Under the pieces are notes generated by a model, which ran no database searches, had not been told where the DNA came from, and worked only from the letters and a program-made list of their open reading frames with translations. 64,000 bases of DNA from Acidobacteriota bacterium. Lineage in GTDB: Bacteria; Acidobacteriota; Thermoanaerobaculia; Multivoradales; JBCCEF01. This document shows, piece after piece, positions 24,929 through 32,301 of this stretch (its first letter is position 1; the number at the start of each line of letters is the position of its first letter). The stretch covers positions 1-64,000 of the forward strand of contig JBCCHV010000037.1 in NCBI GenBank assembly GCA_039028635.1. The letters are read 5' to 3'. The position numbers and the translations under genes are program-made.

Positions 24929-26260
24929 CTAGGCCGACTGCTGGAAGGCGAGCTGGGGATCTCGCCGGGCGCGCTCGAGATACTGCGTCAAGTCGGCCAG
25001 CAGGCCCGTGGTGACGGCCTCTTCTTGCGCCGCTTGCTGGAGTAGCAGCAGCGCCGCGAGCGCTTCGCGATGAACCGCCTGCACCTCGAAGATGCCGCGG
25101 ATCTCCTCGGCGACCTCCACCACCTCACGCCGCCGACCTTGGCGCATCAGCACCGCCGCCAGCTCGAGGGAGACCAGGGCGGCATCGAAGGCTTTGCCTT
25201 CCGCGACGAAACCATCGCGGGTGGCGCGAAAACCTTCGGTCGCCTCGGCGAGCCGGTCGAAGCCGGCCGCGACCTTGGATTCGAGCCAGCTGAGGCGAAG
25301 TTGGGTCCACGGTTCCGGAAACTCCCGGTAGCGATGGCGGACCGCCGCGAGACCTTCTCGGGCTTCACCAAACTGCCCACCTTCGGCGAGATAGAACAGG
25401 CGATTGTGAATCGCGCAGAGGGAAAGGAACGGCTCCTGCAAGCCCTCGAGACAGCGCTCCGCCCTCTCGACGGCCGCGATCGCGCCTTCGAGATCACCGG
25501 TTTCCTTGTAGACGGTGCTCGCCGACAGCAGCGTCCGCGCCACACTCACCGGATCTTCGGCGAGCTGATAGAGCACTGCAGAACGACTGAAGAGAGCCTC
25601 ACTGGCGGAGAACCGACGCTGATCACAGGCCAGAATCGCCTCCAGCCAGTCGAGCTCGGCGAGGGCGAGGGAATCGACCAGCTGCTGCTGACGGGCCATG
25701 GCGCGAGCGGCATCGAGTCGGCGCCGTGCCTGCCGAAGCTCCCCATCGGCTCGCAGCGCATTACCGAGATGGGCCAGGGAAAGCACCATCAACTCTCCCT
25801 GGAATGGCGCCGGAATGCGGAGGGAAACCTCATAGGCGAGCTCTGAGAAATGACGGGCCTCGGCCGCGGCCCCCGGCAGGGCCGCCCGACAGTCGCGCAG
25901 CAGAGCCTCCGCCAGAAACGGACTGCGGAAGCGTCTTCGGGCCCGCTGGACGCGACCCAAGCGATCTCCCGGACCGAGCCGAAGCAACGTCTGGTAGTCC
26001 TCCCTCGACCGCTGACGTTCGTCGGACAGCTCCCGATGAAGGTCCGCCGAACGGCGGCGGACGCGAGCAAAAACATCGTCCATCGCGGCACCGTCGTCGG
26101 CGACCTCGGTCGGCTCGCGTTGGAATCGCAACAGTTCCTCGCGACAGGTCGGACAGATCTGAGAGAGGTGGCTCAGCACCCACTGAGTCACGCTCTCCGC
26201 ATCGACCTTGCCAGAATCAAGGGCGCGCAAGATTTCGGCGGTGATATGGATATCCGTCAC
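24929..26260 (-). CDS. TPR-like helical-repeat protein with N-terminal HX4CXXC motif
   Basis: A 443-aa protein with no signal or membrane segment. The GTG at 26260 behind GGGAGGA is preferred. The first about 45 residues contain VLSHLSQICPTCREELLRF, an HX4CXXC pattern like that of zinc-finger anti-sigma domains. The rest is a series of TPR-like helix pairs, e.g. GELMVLSLAHLGNALRADGE, SVARTLLSASTVYKETGDLEGAI and ALVSLELAAVLMRQGRRREVV. It is the last gene of the leftward sigma/anti-sigma/CHAT cluster, 104 bp after the small exported protein. It could be a cytoplasmic scaffold or a second sigma-binding protein. Function not known. Confidence 0.8.
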   Translation of the reverse strand: MTDIHITAEILRALDSGKVDAESVTQWVLSHLSQICPTCREELLRFQREPTEVADDGAAMDDVFARVRRRSADLHRELSDERQRSREDYQTLLRLGPGDRLGRVQRARRRFRSPFLAEALLRDCRAALPGAAAEARHFSELAYEVSLRIPAPFQGELMVLSLAHLGNALRADGELRQARRRLDAARAMARQQQLVDSLALAELDWLEAILACDQRRFSASEALFSRSAVLYQLAEDPVSVARTLLSASTVYKETGDLEGAIAAVERAERCLEGLQEPFLSLCAIHNRLFYLAEGGQFGEAREGLAAVRHRYREFPEPWTQLRLSWLESKVAAGFDRLAEATEGFRATRDGFVAEGKAFDAALVSLELAAVLMRQGRRREVVEVAEEIRGIFEVQAVHREALAALLLLQQAAQEEAVTTGLLADLTQYLERARRDPQLAFQQSA

Positions 26261-26364
26261 AAGTCCTCCCGATCGGTGTCCCCTGATATTGGGTGTGAGG
26301 AACTTCGAGTTTTCGTGACAAAAAGATCGCGCCGGCGCACCTCGAGCGACGCACCGGCGCTGTT

Positions 26365-26628
26365 TCAACGGGCCGCCACACCTCCCCCAGGATCCATCTG
26401 ACCTCCACCGTCATCTCCTTCATGGGTCGGCTCGCCGTTCCCCGTCGTCTCCTCCGGAGTCGAGCTCGAGCCCGCCCCGAAGGACTCCAGGAGGTTCGAC
26501 CAGAACAAGGCGAGACGACTCGACGGTGTCCTCGCTTCGAGCTCCGGAGCGCCGTAGAGCGAAAGCCCCAACGACGCCATGCAGACAATCAAGACGAGGA
26601 GAACGAGGTTGCGTGCACTTCTTCGCAT
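26365..26628 (-). CDS. Small exported protein with Gly-rich MDPGG tail
   Basis: An 87-aa protein. It begins with a signal or anchor segment (RNLVLLVLIVCMASLGLSLYG), then a short helical part (RLALFWSNLLESFG), then a low-complexity acidic/Gly/Thr tail ending GGGQMDPGGGVAAR. GGGGAG precedes the ATG at good spacing. It lies between the CHAT gene and the TPR gene, in the same direction. It has no cysteine pair or enzyme motif. Being exported and small and next to an exported CHAT protease, it is a natural candidate substrate or signal (inference). Confidence 0.7.
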   Translation of the reverse strand: MRRSARNLVLLVLIVCMASLGLSLYGAPELEARTPSSRLALFWSNLLESFGAGSSSTPEETTGNGEPTHEGDDGGGQMDPGGGVAAR

Positions 26629-26817: not shown

Positions 26818-27020
26818 CTAGCAGGTTGCTGAGAAGCCTGCGACCGAGCACGCAAGGGCTCGGCGGCGAAGCCGCAAGACGGGGTGAGCCCCTGCGCGAG
26901 CCGCCGAAACCGCACTTTTTCGGGCCGGACCGCGCAGGCGAGGAGGCGCTCAGCCCCTTTGATAAACGGCAAGCAGCGCTGAAAAGCTCGCGAAGCGCGA
27001 CTTTCTCAGCAGCCTGCTAG
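26818..27020. repeat. 203-bp inverted-repeat element (MITE-like), CTAGCAGG family
   Basis: Left end CTAGCAGGTTGCTGAGAAG (26818-26836) and right end TTCTCAGCAGCCTGCTAG (27003-27020) are inverted repeats with one mismatch. The interior has further hairpins and no gene. The TAG stop of the CHAT gene is formed by the right end of the element. The same end sequence is found alone at 1544-1562 and in two copies at 140-344. No transposase is encoded; it would have to be moved in trans. Confidence 0.75.
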
Positions 27021-29797
27021 CGCAGCCAGCGGCGGCCGAGCAAGTAGGCGAGCAGCAGCACGAAGAGGAGAATCGTAATCATGATCGATCTCTGGTGACA
27101 GGCCCACCAACGGCGAGCCGGCGGTTGCTCGAAGGGCACGAACTCACCGTCTCCAAGCACCATGATGCCGGCCCAGGCCTCGACCGGCAGCCCCTCGCGA
27201 CGCAGCGCATCCTGGGTCTTGCCGAGGGCCTGGGCAACGGAGACGCCTTGCACCAGCTCGCGATAGAAAGAGGTAAAGAAATACTCCGCATGCGCATCCT
27301 GCAGGGACCAGTAACTACCGATGACCACACGCGCTCCCGCCTCGAAGAAGGCGCGCGCCAGGCCGAGGGGCCCCTCCCCCTGCAGGATGCGTCCGGTCGC
27401 ACCGCGGCAGGCCGACAAGACCACCATGTGCTGATCGAGATCGAGATCGACGATCTCGGGAATCGAGAGCCGCCCATCGTCGTCACCGGTCCCGGAGGTC
27501 AAGAGCACCGCCGAGCGCTCCGGCTGATCGCGATCGGTCATCGCATGGGTGGCGAAGTGAAGGATCTGGAAGTCCGAAGGCGGCGTTTGCTTCAGCCGCC
27601 CTTCGGTGGCCTCGGCTCCCATCCAGGCGCGGCTGCCACCACCCAGCACGCAGACGATCTCGCGACCCTCCCGCCGAGCATGGGGCAACGGACCGAGGTC
27701 CTTGCGCGCCAACACGCGCTCGAGCCTTTCCACCTGGACCGGCTCATCGCTGAGATCGGCAACCTGTAGCGGCACCGGATCGGCAAAGACCAGGGCTGGC
27801 GTCGCGAAGGGCGGCTCGGCCCGGGCTCGAGTCTGGCGCTGCTCGAACCAAAGGGTCGCCGAGGGCACCACCGAGAGGCTGAAGCGCTCGGTGATGGATC
27901 GCCCGTCGCCGAGCTCGACGAGGGCGAAGGGGAAGCGGTGGAGATTGCCATCGGGCACGATGGTGAGCTTGGTCACCTCCGGCGGCAAGGCCGCGATCGG
28001 CCCTGCGAAAAGCGACTCGGTCAGCGCCGAGAGAGGTCGCGGCAGCAATGGGTCGGCCGGCAAGTTGCGCTCGAAGAGATTGAGGAACATCCTCACTTGG
28101 TCCTCCACCTCGTCGCCGGACGGCAGACGGAAGATCTCGACGCTTTTTGGACGCAGAACCAAAGCCCAGGAGCCGCCGGCGAAGGATCCGTTGGCATAGC
28201 GATCCCGCGCCATCTGGAAGGTGAGCAGTGCTTCATCCGGCGCCATTCGCGCCTGCACCTGCCGGAGGTCCGGAATCAGTGCTTCCCAAGAGTCGTCCTG
28301 GCGGCGAGCCACGGGCCCCAACAGCTCCAGCAGATTCCGCGCCCTGACCCGTTCGGCGAGAACGAAAGCCTCCTCGACCGCCGCCGACGGCTCCAGCTCG
28401 GAGGTCGCCTGTGCGAGGAGGCGACCACTGACGGTGGCGTAAAGGCGACGCCAGACAGCGAACACTTCGGCTCGGCTGCCGCGGCTCTGCTGTTGCCGTC
28501 GAAGCTCTTCGATCTCCTGCAGATAGGCCTGCGACTTCGTCAGGGCATCCTCGAGGCCGCCCATTCTTGGTTCTTCCCAAACGACCTCGAGGGCATCCTC
28601 CAGCATGTTCAAGCGCACGCTGCCGCGCTGCCCGGCGAGCAAGGCCTCCACCTCGGCAGTACTGGCCTCGCCAGCCCTCGCCGCCAGCAGCGAGCTTCGG
28701 CAGTAGAGCGCCTCGGTCCTCGGCCGGTCGGCGGCGAGCTCGAGGCAACGCTCGAAGTCGGCTCGTCCGTCCTCCTTGCCACGCAAGCGCCCGAGCTCAT
28801 TCCAAGCCAACATCTCGAGACCGACGGATCCGGTCGCTTCGGCCAGCTCGACGATGCGCGCGAGCTTGGCTTCGAGATCGCCGATTTCTCCCTGCAGCAC
28901 CCGGAACACCACCTGGTCGTAGAGACTGCGAGCCTCGGTGCTGAGAGCGCCGTGCTCGCGCGCCCAATCGGCGAGCTCGCGCAGCACACCTTGCGCCGCC
29001 GCGTAGCGCCCCATCTCACCCAGCGCCTTGGCCAGAACGCTCAGGCTGGTGCGATAGACGTCGCGATCCAGGCCCGTCCGCGGCGCGACCGCGCGGATCC
29101 GCTCACAGGTTTCCTGCACACCCCTAAGGTCCTCACCGAGGCGGAATTGGCGCTCCGCCCGGAGTAAATCGAGCCGCAGGCAAGGCACGTCCGTCGAGCC
29201 GGCCTCGGGACACCTTTCTCCCAGAAAGCTCGCCAGCTGGCGCTCCCGCTGCTCCGCCTGGTCGAACCGACCGCGCGCCAGCTCGAGGCGCGCCAAGACG
29301 ATGTGGCAGGAAACCACTCCCTCGAGATCATCGGCGGCGCGGAACTCCGGCAGCAGGTCCAGGATGGCCGCGATCGTCCCAGCCCGGTCCGATCCATAGG
29401 TCAACAAGGCACGAAAGTACCGAGTCCATCGTGAGCTCGGCTCGGCGGCGAGTCGTGTGAGATAGAGCCGGCGGGCCTCCGGCCCGGAACGGGAGGCGCG
29501 GAACAGGCAGATCAAGCGCTCGCGACCGCCGGCCGCGTGGGCGTCACAGGAGGCCAAGGCATCGACCGCCGACGGCGCTTCGGCCTCGGCGGCCGCGGGC
29601 CTCGAGACCACCGAGGAGGCGGCGACCGCCAGGACCAGCCATCCGACCATGGTCGCGACTCGGAGACGACGCCAGGCGCCGAGCAAGCTGCGTCGGGCCG
29701 GCCTGCGCCCGCCCTGCGCCGCGGCGACGGACCGGCGCCCCTCGCCCTCCGAGGCGGCGTCCGCGAACCAGCTCCCGTCCCTCCCTGTCACTCCCAT
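27017..29797 (-). CDS. Exported TPR-CHAT peptidase with C-terminal membrane anchor
   Basis: A 926-aa protein. A long basic N-region with RRLRV is followed by a hydrophobic segment ending ASSVVSRPAAAEA (about residues 50-75), a signal peptide or anchor. The middle (about 90-480) is a set of TPR-like helical repeats. The C-terminal third is a CHAT domain: H751 in ILHFATHAMTD and C797 in VLSACRGATGRILQGEG form the caspase-like His/Cys pair, with GARVVIGSYWSLQDAHAEYF after it. The last about 25 residues (MITILLFVLLLAYLLGRRWLR) are a transmembrane helix. If the N-segment is cleaved, the peptidase faces the periplasm, unlike the cytosolic TPR-CHAT of type III-E CRISPR. The ATG has GGGAG upstream. 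The stop is formed by the right end of an inverted-repeat element. Confidence 0.88.
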   Translation of the reverse strand: MGVTGRDGSWFADAASEGEGRRSVAAAQGGRRPARRSLLGAWRRLRVATMVGWLVLAVAASSVVSRPAAAEAEAPSAVDALASCDAHAAGGRERLICLFRASRSGPEARRLYLTRLAAEPSSRWTRYFRALLTYGSDRAGTIAAILDLLPEFRAADDLEGVVSCHIVLARLELARGRFDQAEQRERQLASFLGERCPEAGSTDVPCLRLDLLRAERQFRLGEDLRGVQETCERIRAVAPRTGLDRDVYRTSLSVLAKALGEMGRYAAAQGVLRELADWAREHGALSTEARSLYDQVVFRVLQGEIGDLEAKLARIVELAEATGSVGLEMLAWNELGRLRGKEDGRADFERCLELAADRPRTEALYCRSSLLAARAGEASTAEVEALLAGQRGSVRLNMLEDALEVVWEEPRMGGLEDALTKSQAYLQEIEELRRQQQSRGSRAEVFAVWRRLYATVSGRLLAQATSELEPSAAVEEAFVLAERVRARNLLELLGPVARRQDDSWEALIPDLRQVQARMAPDEALLTFQMARDRYANGSFAGGSWALVLRPKSVEIFRLPSGDEVEDQVRMFLNLFERNLPADPLLPRPLSALTESLFAGPIAALPPEVTKLTIVPDGNLHRFPFALVELGDGRSITERFSLSVVPSATLWFEQRQTRARAEPPFATPALVFADPVPLQVADLSDEPVQVERLERVLARKDLGPLPHARREGREIVCVLGGGSRAWMGAEATEGRLKQTPPSDFQILHFATHAMTDRDQPERSAVLLTSGTGDDDGRLSIPEIVDLDLDQHMVVLSACRGATGRILQGEGPLGLARAFFEAGARVVIGSYWSLQDAHAEYFFTSFYRELVQGVSVAQALGKTQDALRREGLPVEAWAGIMVLGDGEFVPFEQPPARRWWACHQRSIMITILLFVLLLAYLLGRRWLR

Positions 29798-29861: not shown

Positions 29862-30527
29862 CTAACTCACCTCCGAGGGCTGCCCTCCGAAGCGCTCCAA
29901 CAGCTCGCCGAGGCGCGGCTCCGCATAACCCTTGAGCGGCCTGTAGTCGGGGTCTTCCTCGACCCTCTTGGCCTCGGCGAGAAAGCGCCTTTTGTCGTCG
30001 ACAGCGCCGTCTCGCCAGCAGGCTTCGGCACGCAGCAGCCAGTAGGCGAGGATGAGGTCCTGATCGCTCTTGGAGACCGCCCCCAGGTCCTGCTCCTCGA
30101 GCCTCTCGATCAGCGGTCGCAGGTCTTCCCCTCCACACAGCGCAATCTCGAGATCGGCCAGCAAGAGTCGGCGAGTCTGGTCCTCGGCCAAGGCGTACTT
30201 CATCTTCGCCGCCTGAGAGAGCTGCTCCCGAGCTGCGTCGTGCCTCTCGCCACGCGCCAACATGCGAGCCCTCGCGACCTGACATCGGAAGGACTCCTGG
30301 GGATGGCGTTCTTGGTAGCCCGCACCGATGGCATAGAGCTGTTCCGAGAGCAGAAACTTCTCGATTCGATAGCAGTGATCGGCGACGTGCAAGAGGCACT
30401 CGAGGTGAAGGTCCGACGCCTCCACCACGACATGGGGCTCTTCCTCGTCAATCGTCACCCGCGCCGGTTTTCCGGTCGATTGGTGCGTTCCGGTCTTGTT
30501 ATCGGTAGTGTCCTCGAGATTCGTCAT
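29862..30527 (-). CDS. Helical-repeat protein of unknown function in the CHAT cluster
   Basis: A 221-aa soluble protein. The ATG at 30527 is chosen because GGGAAGGGAG precedes it. The first about 35 residues are polar and probably flexible (MTNLEDTTDNKTGTHQSTGK). The rest reads as alpha-helical repeats: ECLLHVADHCYRIEKFLLSEQLYAIG, then RARMLARGERHDAAREQLSQAA and AYWLLRAEACWRDGAVDDKRRF. No catalytic motif or export signal is visible. It lies 64 bp upstream of the CHAT gene and 68 bp downstream of the anti-sigma gene, so it belongs to the same transcript and could be an adaptor. Confidence 0.75.
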   Translation of the reverse strand: MTNLEDTTDNKTGTHQSTGKPARVTIDEEEPHVVVEASDLHLECLLHVADHCYRIEKFLLSEQLYAIGAGYQERHPQESFRCQVARARMLARGERHDAAREQLSQAAKMKYALAEDQTRRLLLADLEIALCGGEDLRPLIERLEEQDLGAVSKSDQDLILAYWLLRAEACWRDGAVDDKRRFLAEAKRVEEDPDYRPLKGYAEPRLGELLERFGGQPSEVS

Positions 30528-30595
30528 CGCAGCTCCCTTCCCTGATTCAACCGATGAGACCGCCCTGCAAGTCCATCCCTCCACAGAGCCGATCC

Positions 30596-31333
30596 CTACT
30601 TCGAAAGACCTTCGACGGTCTCCCCCTGGTTCTCACAGCAGGGAGAAGGTCCGAAGGTGAGATAAAACGTCGGCGATTCGATCACTTCACCAGCGGGCGT
30701 CTCCGCGACGACCCGCCACAAGAGCATCTCTCCGAGCACCAGCGCAGGAAGCTCGTCGAGACCCACGGTCAGCCGTGGCACCGTCAAACCGGACTCGCTG
30801 ATCACCGGCGCGAGGTCCTCGCGCTTGATCCAAACGCTGTAGAGAGAGCCCTCGGGAGCCCCCTCCCAACACAGCACGAAGGGCTGATGCAGCGGCATCG
30901 TCTCGCCGTCGAGAGGTGAGGAGATCTCGGGCTCCTCGCCGCGACTGACCACGTGATCAGGCCCCGGGCGCAGGTCATCCTGCGAGAAGAAGATGCCACT
31001 CAGAACCAGAACCAATCCCGCGGCGAGGGCCGCCGGCTTCAACCACTTCCGCCAACCCGGCCGAACCGGCTGCTGCGCCGCCTTGATCGCCTGCAGGTGG
31101 CCGGCGCAGCGCGGACATCTCAGAAGATGAGCCAAGACCTCGCGGGTTTCCTCGGGCGTTGTTTCGAGACGAGCCAGGCGCCAGAGAGTCTCGGCCCCAG
31201 GGCAAGAGGAAGCGACGCCCCCCTCTTCGCTCTCGGCACCGAGATCTAGCTTCGGATAGCGGTCATCGAGGCACTCGTGAAGGAAGTGTCGATAGGCCCG
31301 AGTCAGATCTTGCTGGGAAAGTCGCTTCGACAT
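30596..31333 (-). CDS. Zinc-finger anti-sigma factor, single-pass membrane protein
   Basis: A 245-aa protein. The N-terminal half contains EVLAHLLRCPRCAGHL, an HXXXCXXC zinc motif as in ZAS-type anti-sigma factors (about residues 68-80). One membrane helix follows (LKPAALAAGLVLVLSGIFF, about 97-115). The extracytoplasmic domain of about 125 residues (ISSPLDGETMPLHQPFVLCWEGA) looks like a beta-rich sensor. It follows the ECF sigma gene after a 359-bp gap and precedes the helical-repeat and CHAT genes. The expected role is to hold the sigma factor at the membrane until an envelope signal arrives. Confidence 0.82.
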   Translation of the reverse strand: MSKRLSQQDLTRAYRHFLHECLDDRYPKLDLGAESEEGGVASSCPGAETLWRLARLETTPEETREVLAHLLRCPRCAGHLQAIKAAQQPVRPGWRKWLKPAALAAGLVLVLSGIFFSQDDLRPGPDHVVSRGEEPEISSPLDGETMPLHQPFVLCWEGAPEGSLYSVWIKREDLAPVISESGLTVPRLTVGLDELPALVLGEMLLWRVVAETPAGEVIESPTFYLTFGPSPCCENQGETVEGLSK

Positions 31334-31692: not shown

Positions 31693-32301
31693 TCATGAGG
31701 GGCCGAAACCCTTCTCATGAAGACACTCCCGAAGCAGCTTTCGACCCGCCGTCAGGCGATTGTCGACCACCCGCTGGCCGAGACCGAGAACCTGGCGAAT
31801 CTCCCTCTGTTTGAAGCCCAGGATGTCGAGCTGCAGGACGTCGACCAGCTTGGGCCGACGCTGTGCGATCGCTGCCAGACATTCGTGGATCGCCCGGCCC
31901 AGGTCGCCCCGGGTCGGCGGCACGCGAATGCCCGGCGGCTCGATCGCGGGATCCAGCTCGGCTTCCCATCGACCCTTGCGCCGCCGGTCGATGACTTCGT
32001 TCTTGACCGTGGTGATGAGGTAGGCATCCGGGAGACGGCGGCGCTCGCGATCGTCGGAGTAGCGGCGGTGGATGCGCAGCCACGAGCTCTGCACCACATC
32101 TTCACGGTCGGATTCGGCGACCCCGAGCTTGGGCAGCAACCAGCGACCGATTCCGGTGAGCCGGCGGTAGGTCGAGCCGGCGGAGAGATCCGTCACGGCA
32201 CCCGAACCTCTCTTTGGAGGTGCGGTGGACCGACCTTCCTTTTCAGCCCGGCTCGATGGCGCAGTCCGCGACTCCTCGCCACTTGCCCTCCCCAGGGTCA
32301 T
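31693..32301 (-). CDS. ECF-type RNA polymerase sigma factor
   Basis: A 202-aa sigma factor. Region 2 is seen in LGVAESDREDVVQSSWLRIHRRY and LITTVKNEVIDRRRKGRW; region 4 in PKLVDVLQLDILGFKQREIRQVLGLGQRVVDNRLTAGRKLL. The ATG at 32301 has GAGGAGG nine bases upstream; a GTG 35 codons later (before TDLSAGSTYRR) is also possible and would remove a polar N-terminal tail. It heads the leftward cluster with an anti-sigma factor, a helical-repeat protein, a CHAT peptidase, a small exported protein and a TPR protein, so it probably controls them. Confidence 0.88.
   Translation of the reverse strand: MTLGRASGEESRTAPSSRAEKEGRSTAPPKRGSGAVTDLSAGSTYRRLTGIGRWLLPKLGVAESDREDVVQSSWLRIHRRYSDDRERRRLPDAYLITTVKNEVIDRRRKGRWEAELDPAIEPPGIRVPPTRGDLGRAIHECLAAIAQRRPKLVDVLQLDILGFKQREIRQVLGLGQRVVDNRLTAGRKLLRECLHEKGFGPS

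Follow-up and report, generated by a model that had tools for sequence, protein, structure and literature searches.

A predicted exported and membrane-anchored TPR-CHAT protein of Acidobacteriota and Myxococcota, encoded beside an ECF sigma factor and a putative Fn3-type anti-sigma factor

The locus and its genes

The window analysed here is a stretch of 64,000 nucleotides from the genome of an Acidobacteriota bacterium (contig JBCCHV010000037.1). Positions 27017..29797 of its minus strand encode a protein of 926 amino acids (P0001), the target of this analysis, with a signal-like N-terminus, TPR-like repeats, a CHAT domain and a C-terminal membrane helix. PF12770 is the sole CHAT match in the protein (E 2.7e-53) and extends over residues 587-883 (27149..28039, minus strand), aligned to positions 2-289 of the 289 in the profile. 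The catalytic residues occupy the aligned positions, the codon of H751 lying at 27545-27547 and that of C797 at 27407-27409, both on the minus strand.

The N-terminus of the protein consists of RRLRV, a hydrophobic run (ATMVGWLVLAVAASSVV) and an AxA-type region; the export segment corresponds approximately to residues 38-72 (LLGAWRRLRVATMVGWLVLAVAASSVVSRPAAAEA; 29582..29686, minus strand). The annotated ATG at 29797 has the best Shine-Dalgarno-like sequence, with a TTG at 29686 as the alternative; because residues 1-37 are unconserved and disordered, the start is perhaps internal. In the AlphaFold model (mean pLDDT 80.2, pTM 0.77), TPR-like helical hairpins starting at the cysteine pair C84/C97 fill residues 77-493 (28319..29569, minus strand) and are followed by the CHAT fold and a terminal helix at residues 894-925. 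The TPR repeats noted in the preliminary description are borne out by these hairpins, the Pfam match being weak (TPR_12, E 0.0013, below the cut-off). The final 22 or so residues form a hydrophobic helix (approximately 904-921; 17-residue sum of -4.3 on a Hessa-type scale) and a basic tail, GRRWLR (together 27020..27088, minus strand), identified by hydrophobicity, the AlphaFold model and conservation in the clade described below. The export segment, the intact H751/C797 pair and the C-terminal helix are thus all confirmed. PADLOC reported just a weak similarity to BovA, in the CHAT part, and a contig scan of genomes with the target as a single-protein query gave no match. The source genome (6.28 Mb) contains 25 CHAT matches, 24 of these above the cut-off.

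Upstream of the CHAT gene, on the same minus strand, lie in order a sigma factor gene, an anti-sigma factor gene and an orphan TPR-like gene. The first encodes an ECF-type sigma factor (31693..32301, Sigma70_r2 E 3.4e-8), with the start, according to the gene model, probably at 32196. The product of 30596..31333 is a putative membrane anti-sigma factor. It has a zf-HC2-like domain with the motif HLLRCPRC (E 0.00028; 21.3 bits, just under the cut-off of 22.2), and its AlphaFold model (mean pLDDT 78) comprises helices at residues 47-87, a membrane helix at 99-117, a linker of low confidence and a confident beta-sandwich at 137-228, the structural matches of which are largely fibronectin type III (Fn3) domains. 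The orphan TPR-like protein (29862..30584) had matches in the source genome alone among the 40 genomes searched; its gene fills the slot that in most relatives is held by a gene for a small exported protein.

Conservation of the two hydrophobic segments

In a tree of 136 CHAT domains, the target falls within a clade of 52 rows (SH-aLRT 100), which spans Acidobacteriota and Myxococcota. For counting, clade members were defined by a score of at least 290 bits with the clade-CHAT profile and compared with 92 other CHAT proteins, a class that includes a few truncated clade members. Ten loci on contigs already counted (L077, L079, L080, L081, L083, L088, L090, L091, L093 and L095) were excluded as repeats, as were one short fragment and CHAT matches below 90 bits. 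By our own helix and signal callers, heuristics that rely on hydrophobicity values rather than SignalP or a topology HMM, a C-terminal membrane helix is present in 49 of the 51 complete clade C-termini compared with 7 of 89 in the other CHAT proteins, and a signal-like N-terminus in 44 of 48 clade members compared with 55 of 82; the helix threshold was 2.0 in the first survey and 2.5 in the clade counts. On sigma-factor ORFs, which served as the control, the signal caller gives 3 positives out of 42. The catalytic dyad is universal in the clade (65 of 65 members keep His751 and Cys797), and 109 of 110 other CHATs keep the equivalent residues.

Both segments are retained in relatives that are only 24–35% identical to the target. 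The preliminary description proposed to compare them across orthologues, which could have lost both; both recur, and no clade member is devoid of the two. Among the 52 rows of the tree clade, the helix is found in 47 and absent in three, with two rows left unscored. The sequence of L062, a clade member without the helix, ends at the CHAT domain and has a lipobox signal instead; L052, a protein of the source genome, lacks the helix but has a signal peptide; and in L073, which was scored as lacking the helix, it is marginal. An independent phylum-wide set shows the helix in 11 of 12 clade CHATs and a signal in 7 of 12; of the five signal misses, L246 has a clear signal by eye and the rest start beyond the scanned range. 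The membrane helix has been gained more than once among CHAT proteins; helix-bearing rows outside the clade include four from related genomes and three from Bacteroidota. A separate CHAT group in Bacteroidota (L111, L143 and L147) has a C-terminal membrane helix and no Fn3 anti-sigma gene nearby.

Predicted topology

The extracytoplasmic, tethered topology that was initially suggested for the target is supported as a prediction by the N-terminal signal, the C-terminal helix, a cysteine pair and a charge bias. Net positive charge was compared between the windows of 12 residues that flank the C-terminal helix: the side after the helix carries more in 45 of 49 clade members, the two sides are equal in four, and the side before it carries more in none; in the phylum-wide set, the side after the helix carries more in 8 of 11. 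The target is among those with equal charges, three basic residues being read from the sequence on each side, so that its orientation is deduced from the N-terminal signal and from the relatives. The cysteine pair that follows the signal (C84/C97 in the target) occurs in 41 of 44 clade members, compared with 5% in random segments, and would fit an oxidising compartment. Judging from these features, the target is very probably an exported protein that stays anchored in the cell membrane.

Two variants of this scheme were considered and discarded. A sorting signal in place of an anchor is not apparent: no tail matched any model above the cut-off, neither the NCBIfam models for PEP-CTERM, MYXO-CTERM and others (0 of 10 C-terminal tails) nor those of Pfam (0 of 9 CHAT tails). 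Export by the Tat route was rejected as there is no recognisable Tat motif; RRLRV we take to be an ordinary Sec n-region.

The premise that the TPR-CHAT effectors known so far are soluble proteins of the cytosol does not hold, given that DdvA (see below) is a transmembrane protein with a TPR-CHAT part and that export signals are common in the set examined, with 22 of the 55 signal-bearing CHAT proteins outside the clade having signals of the lipobox type. The assumption of cytosolic bacterial TPR-CHATs is corrected accordingly. Eight TPR-CHATs of the source genome (L041, L048, L050, L051, L053, L054, L055 and L056) resemble lipoproteins, with a lipobox seen by eye after the signal, and exported CHATs therefore appear to be common in this lineage.

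Linkage to the sigma and anti-sigma genes

Of the 53 clade CHATs, 43 have an Fn3-type anti-sigma gene (at least 50 bits) no more than 6 kb away; in 37 of these loci it is upstream and co-oriented, and in six it is divergent. The remaining 10 CHATs, some of them at contig ends, have none within this distance. A sigma gene is likewise near 43 of the 53. The same gene order is found in Myxococcus eversor, M. qinghaiensis and Corallococcus, and among 76 evenly drawn genomes of the Myxococcus/Corallococcus family, a match at E <=1e-60 was obtained in 29, and in 23 of these E was below 1e-150. The proposed link to a membrane anti-sigma factor is therefore supported by gene linkage conserved across two phyla, and what seemed an oddity becomes a testable module that is present in culturable Myxococcus and Corallococcus.

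The association is also seen when the search starts from the anti-sigma factor. In 40 related genomes, this search gave 43 matches of at least 50 bits; 41 of these loci were examined, with a CHAT gene close by in 36 and absent in five, two of the five being on contigs shorter than 9 kb. Across 199 genomes of the phylum, there were 53 matches, and 27 of the 40 loci inspected have a CHAT gene, mostly directly adjacent to the anti-sigma gene, with several of the misses cut by contig ends. By chance, a random place would lie within 10 kb of a CHAT gene in about 8% of cases (25 CHATs in 6.28 Mb); the profile used for these searches (A3) was built from CHAT-linked anti-sigmas and favours CHAT-linked matches. 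Both within the clade of the target and beyond it, Fn3-type anti-sigmas are nearly dedicated to a CHAT neighbour. In one related genome (G021), L066, a clade CHAT with neither a sigma nor an anti-sigma gene beside it, is on a different contig from L157, a sigma/anti-sigma pair that has no CHAT neighbour; the two might pair in trans.

A signal-peptide protein is encoded between the anti-sigma and the CHAT in 24 of the 37 same-strand loci. When six of these small intervening proteins from relatives were scanned for homology, two had BTRD1 (polyglycine hydrolase-like) repeats (L049, 8577-9572; L059, 9542-10597), with no match otherwise. The intervening proteins of L049 and L060 (4421-6561) have in common an ESxLGxDHDGPLxP-like C-terminal end. 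In 18 loci outside Myxococcaceae, no shared ECF promoter upstream of the sigma genes scored better than shuffled sequences; the G+C-rich motif matches within Myxococcaceae are, we think, due to relatedness.

Relation to DdvA, Craspase and other systems

A fold search with the target places Csx29 first (7y9x_B, Z 20.8; 8eey_B, E 3e-14) and DdvA next (8rw5, Z 20.1, 595 residues aligned at 15% identity). With the clade CHAT profile, the best sequence match in the PDB is DdvA (8rot, E 8.9e-11), a chain of 991 amino acids in which the CHAT is aligned at 855-985 with the His and the Cys retained. DdvA of Myxococcus xanthus (PDB 8rot, 8rw5), the ECF partner of which is DdvS, is a solved transmembrane anti-sigma factor with a TPR-CHAT part; beyond its chain length, the title of the entry and the alignment, we infer the domain layout. 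According to a review, DdvS controls a defence island that consists of CBASS and type III-B CRISPR-Cas.

DdvA and the target share the TPR-CHAT fold over most of their length and, as predicted for the target, a coupling with an ECF sigma and with a membrane anti-sigma function, but DdvA is a single chain, whereas the target locus encodes the anti-sigma and the CHAT as separate genes: the CHAT chain contains no anti-sigma domain, which belongs to the gene at 30596-31333. In addition, this anti-sigma has an Fn3-like domain of its own, and a separate signal peptide and C-terminal anchor are predicted for the CHAT chain. Because Csx29 and DdvA are the closest solved fold relatives of the target, the locus looks like a split DdvA.

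According to PMC10028731, Csx29 cleaves Csx30, an inhibitor of an ECF sigma factor. The TPR-CHAT fold and a regulatory logic directed at an ECF sigma are common to Craspase and the target locus; unlike the target, with its export signal, anchor and putative transmembrane anti-sigma, Csx29 acts with Cas7-11 and RNA. Neither Cas7-11 nor a CRISPR array stood out among the genes inspected around the target and its relatives. The NCBIfam Csx29 model matches 12 of the 20 members of the A2 set (best 4e-12), of which the target is member 1, and does not match the target at E 0.01 nor at E 1. Since two TPR-CHAT/ECF couplings are known, one cytosolic and RNA-guided and the other with a membrane anti-sigma, the target locus would be a third layout, with anti-sigma and CHAT on separate chains, both predicted to span the membrane or to be anchored in it. 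The fused form, DdvA, is already solved; what is new is a CHAT, predicted to be exported and anchored, with a dedicated, separate anti-sigma. A literature search, for the most part confined to papers accessible without subscription, returned none that describes an exported CHAT encoded separately, next to an ECF/anti-sigma pair.

Two further comparisons can be drawn. Separase shares the caspase-like fold and the helical array (Z 17-19), with the catalytic motif aligned, but is eukaryotic, much larger and only about 12% identical. The site-1 proteases of anti-sigma factors (DegS/RseA and the RsiW system), the protease fold of which is unrelated to CHAT, would be functional counterparts if the target CHAT cuts the anti-sigma. 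Craspase has itself been likened to site-1 proteolysis of anti-sigma factors (PMC10028731).

Possible mechanisms

From the computed features, conservation, linkage and folds, we infer a topology and a partnership. The target is fairly probably a membrane-held, envelope-side partner of the adjacent ECF/anti-sigma pair, a split DdvA, in which the action of the CHAT leads to the release of the sigma factor. The protein would be exported by the N-terminal signal and then held in the inner membrane by the C-terminal helix, so that the TPR array and the caspase-like CHAT domain face the outside of the cytoplasm. Sensing of an envelope signal probably falls to the TPR part, in many cases perhaps via the small exported protein encoded alongside in relatives. 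The CHAT, with its intact dyad, would then act either on a partner or on that portion of the anti-sigma which lies outside the cytoplasm, so that the sigma factor is released.

A narrower version of this partnership is tentative. It makes the periplasmic CHAT, tethered to the inner membrane, the site-1 protease for the dedicated Fn3-type anti-sigma in Acidobacteriota and Myxococcota, that is, an envelope counterpart of Csx29-Csx30-sigma and a split DdvA with interchangeable anchors (a C-terminal helix or a lipid). Should the CHAT indeed cleave the anti-sigma, separase/caspase-like proteases would start transmembrane transcriptional signalling in bacteria, and Craspase, DdvA and envelope stress responses would become linked. 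A candidate cleavage site in the anti-sigma linker, R131, was rejected. This residue sits at the edge of the low-confidence stretch of the model, mostly with a spacing of 26 to the Fn3 tryptophan, and is present in all 43 clade-linked anti-sigmas, in 17 of 19 linked to other CHATs and in all 5 unlinked ones. It is equally kept in 13 of 13 phylum-wide anti-sigmas without a nearby CHAT and is therefore not evidence for cleavage; its conservation is probably structural.

The linkage could also arise if the CHAT is an output, i.e. if the ECF sigma induces the CHAT, which then cleaves other envelope or secreted proteins, for instance the small exported protein of relatives. The frequent signal-peptide protein between the two genes favours such an arrangement, and the six divergent loci fit simple co-regulation; against it stand the near dedication of the Fn3-type anti-sigma to CHAT neighbours even beyond the clade, the DdvA fusion, which argues for physical coupling, and the target locus itself, which has no exported protein at that place. 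We regard this reading as possible but doubtful. Slightly less credit goes to a CHAT that is a non-proteolytic sensor or co-inhibitor: given that DdvA joins the TPR-CHAT and a transmembrane anti-sigma in one chain, the TPR-CHAT may sense without cutting, bind the anti-sigma at its Fn3 domain and report a ligand by conformational change, as perhaps occurs within DdvA. The search of the anti-sigma linker, which found no cleavage site, agrees with this, but the invariance of the dyad in the clade is hard to explain if catalysis is unused, even though nearly all other CHATs keep it too. A cytosolic protein, or hydrophobic segments that are incidental, is very improbable: the CHAT proteins of Craspase are cytosolic, but both segments persist in distant relatives from two phyla, the signal caller seldom fires on sigma-factor ORFs, and the cysteine pair follows the signal.

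The downstream exported peptide and TPR gene

Downstream of the CHAT gene, the minus strand encodes an exported peptide of 87 amino acids (26365-26628), which had been put forward as a possible CHAT substrate, and, directly following it, a TPR protein with a CxxC-type N-region (24929-26368). Neither is retained as a part of the CHAT module: the TPR gene has 22 copies in the source genome, and the peptide pairs with this different, multicopy TPR family, so that its candidacy as a substrate is not supported. Among 23 loci of the multicopy TPR gene that were examined, 12 have an upstream ORF for an exported peptide of 77-117 amino acids, and 11 of these 12 peptides contain [M/I/L]-D-P-x-G near the C-terminus. 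Rap-Phr systems are pairs of a TPR receptor and an exported peptide, and the layout of the 87-residue peptide and the TPR gene recalls them.
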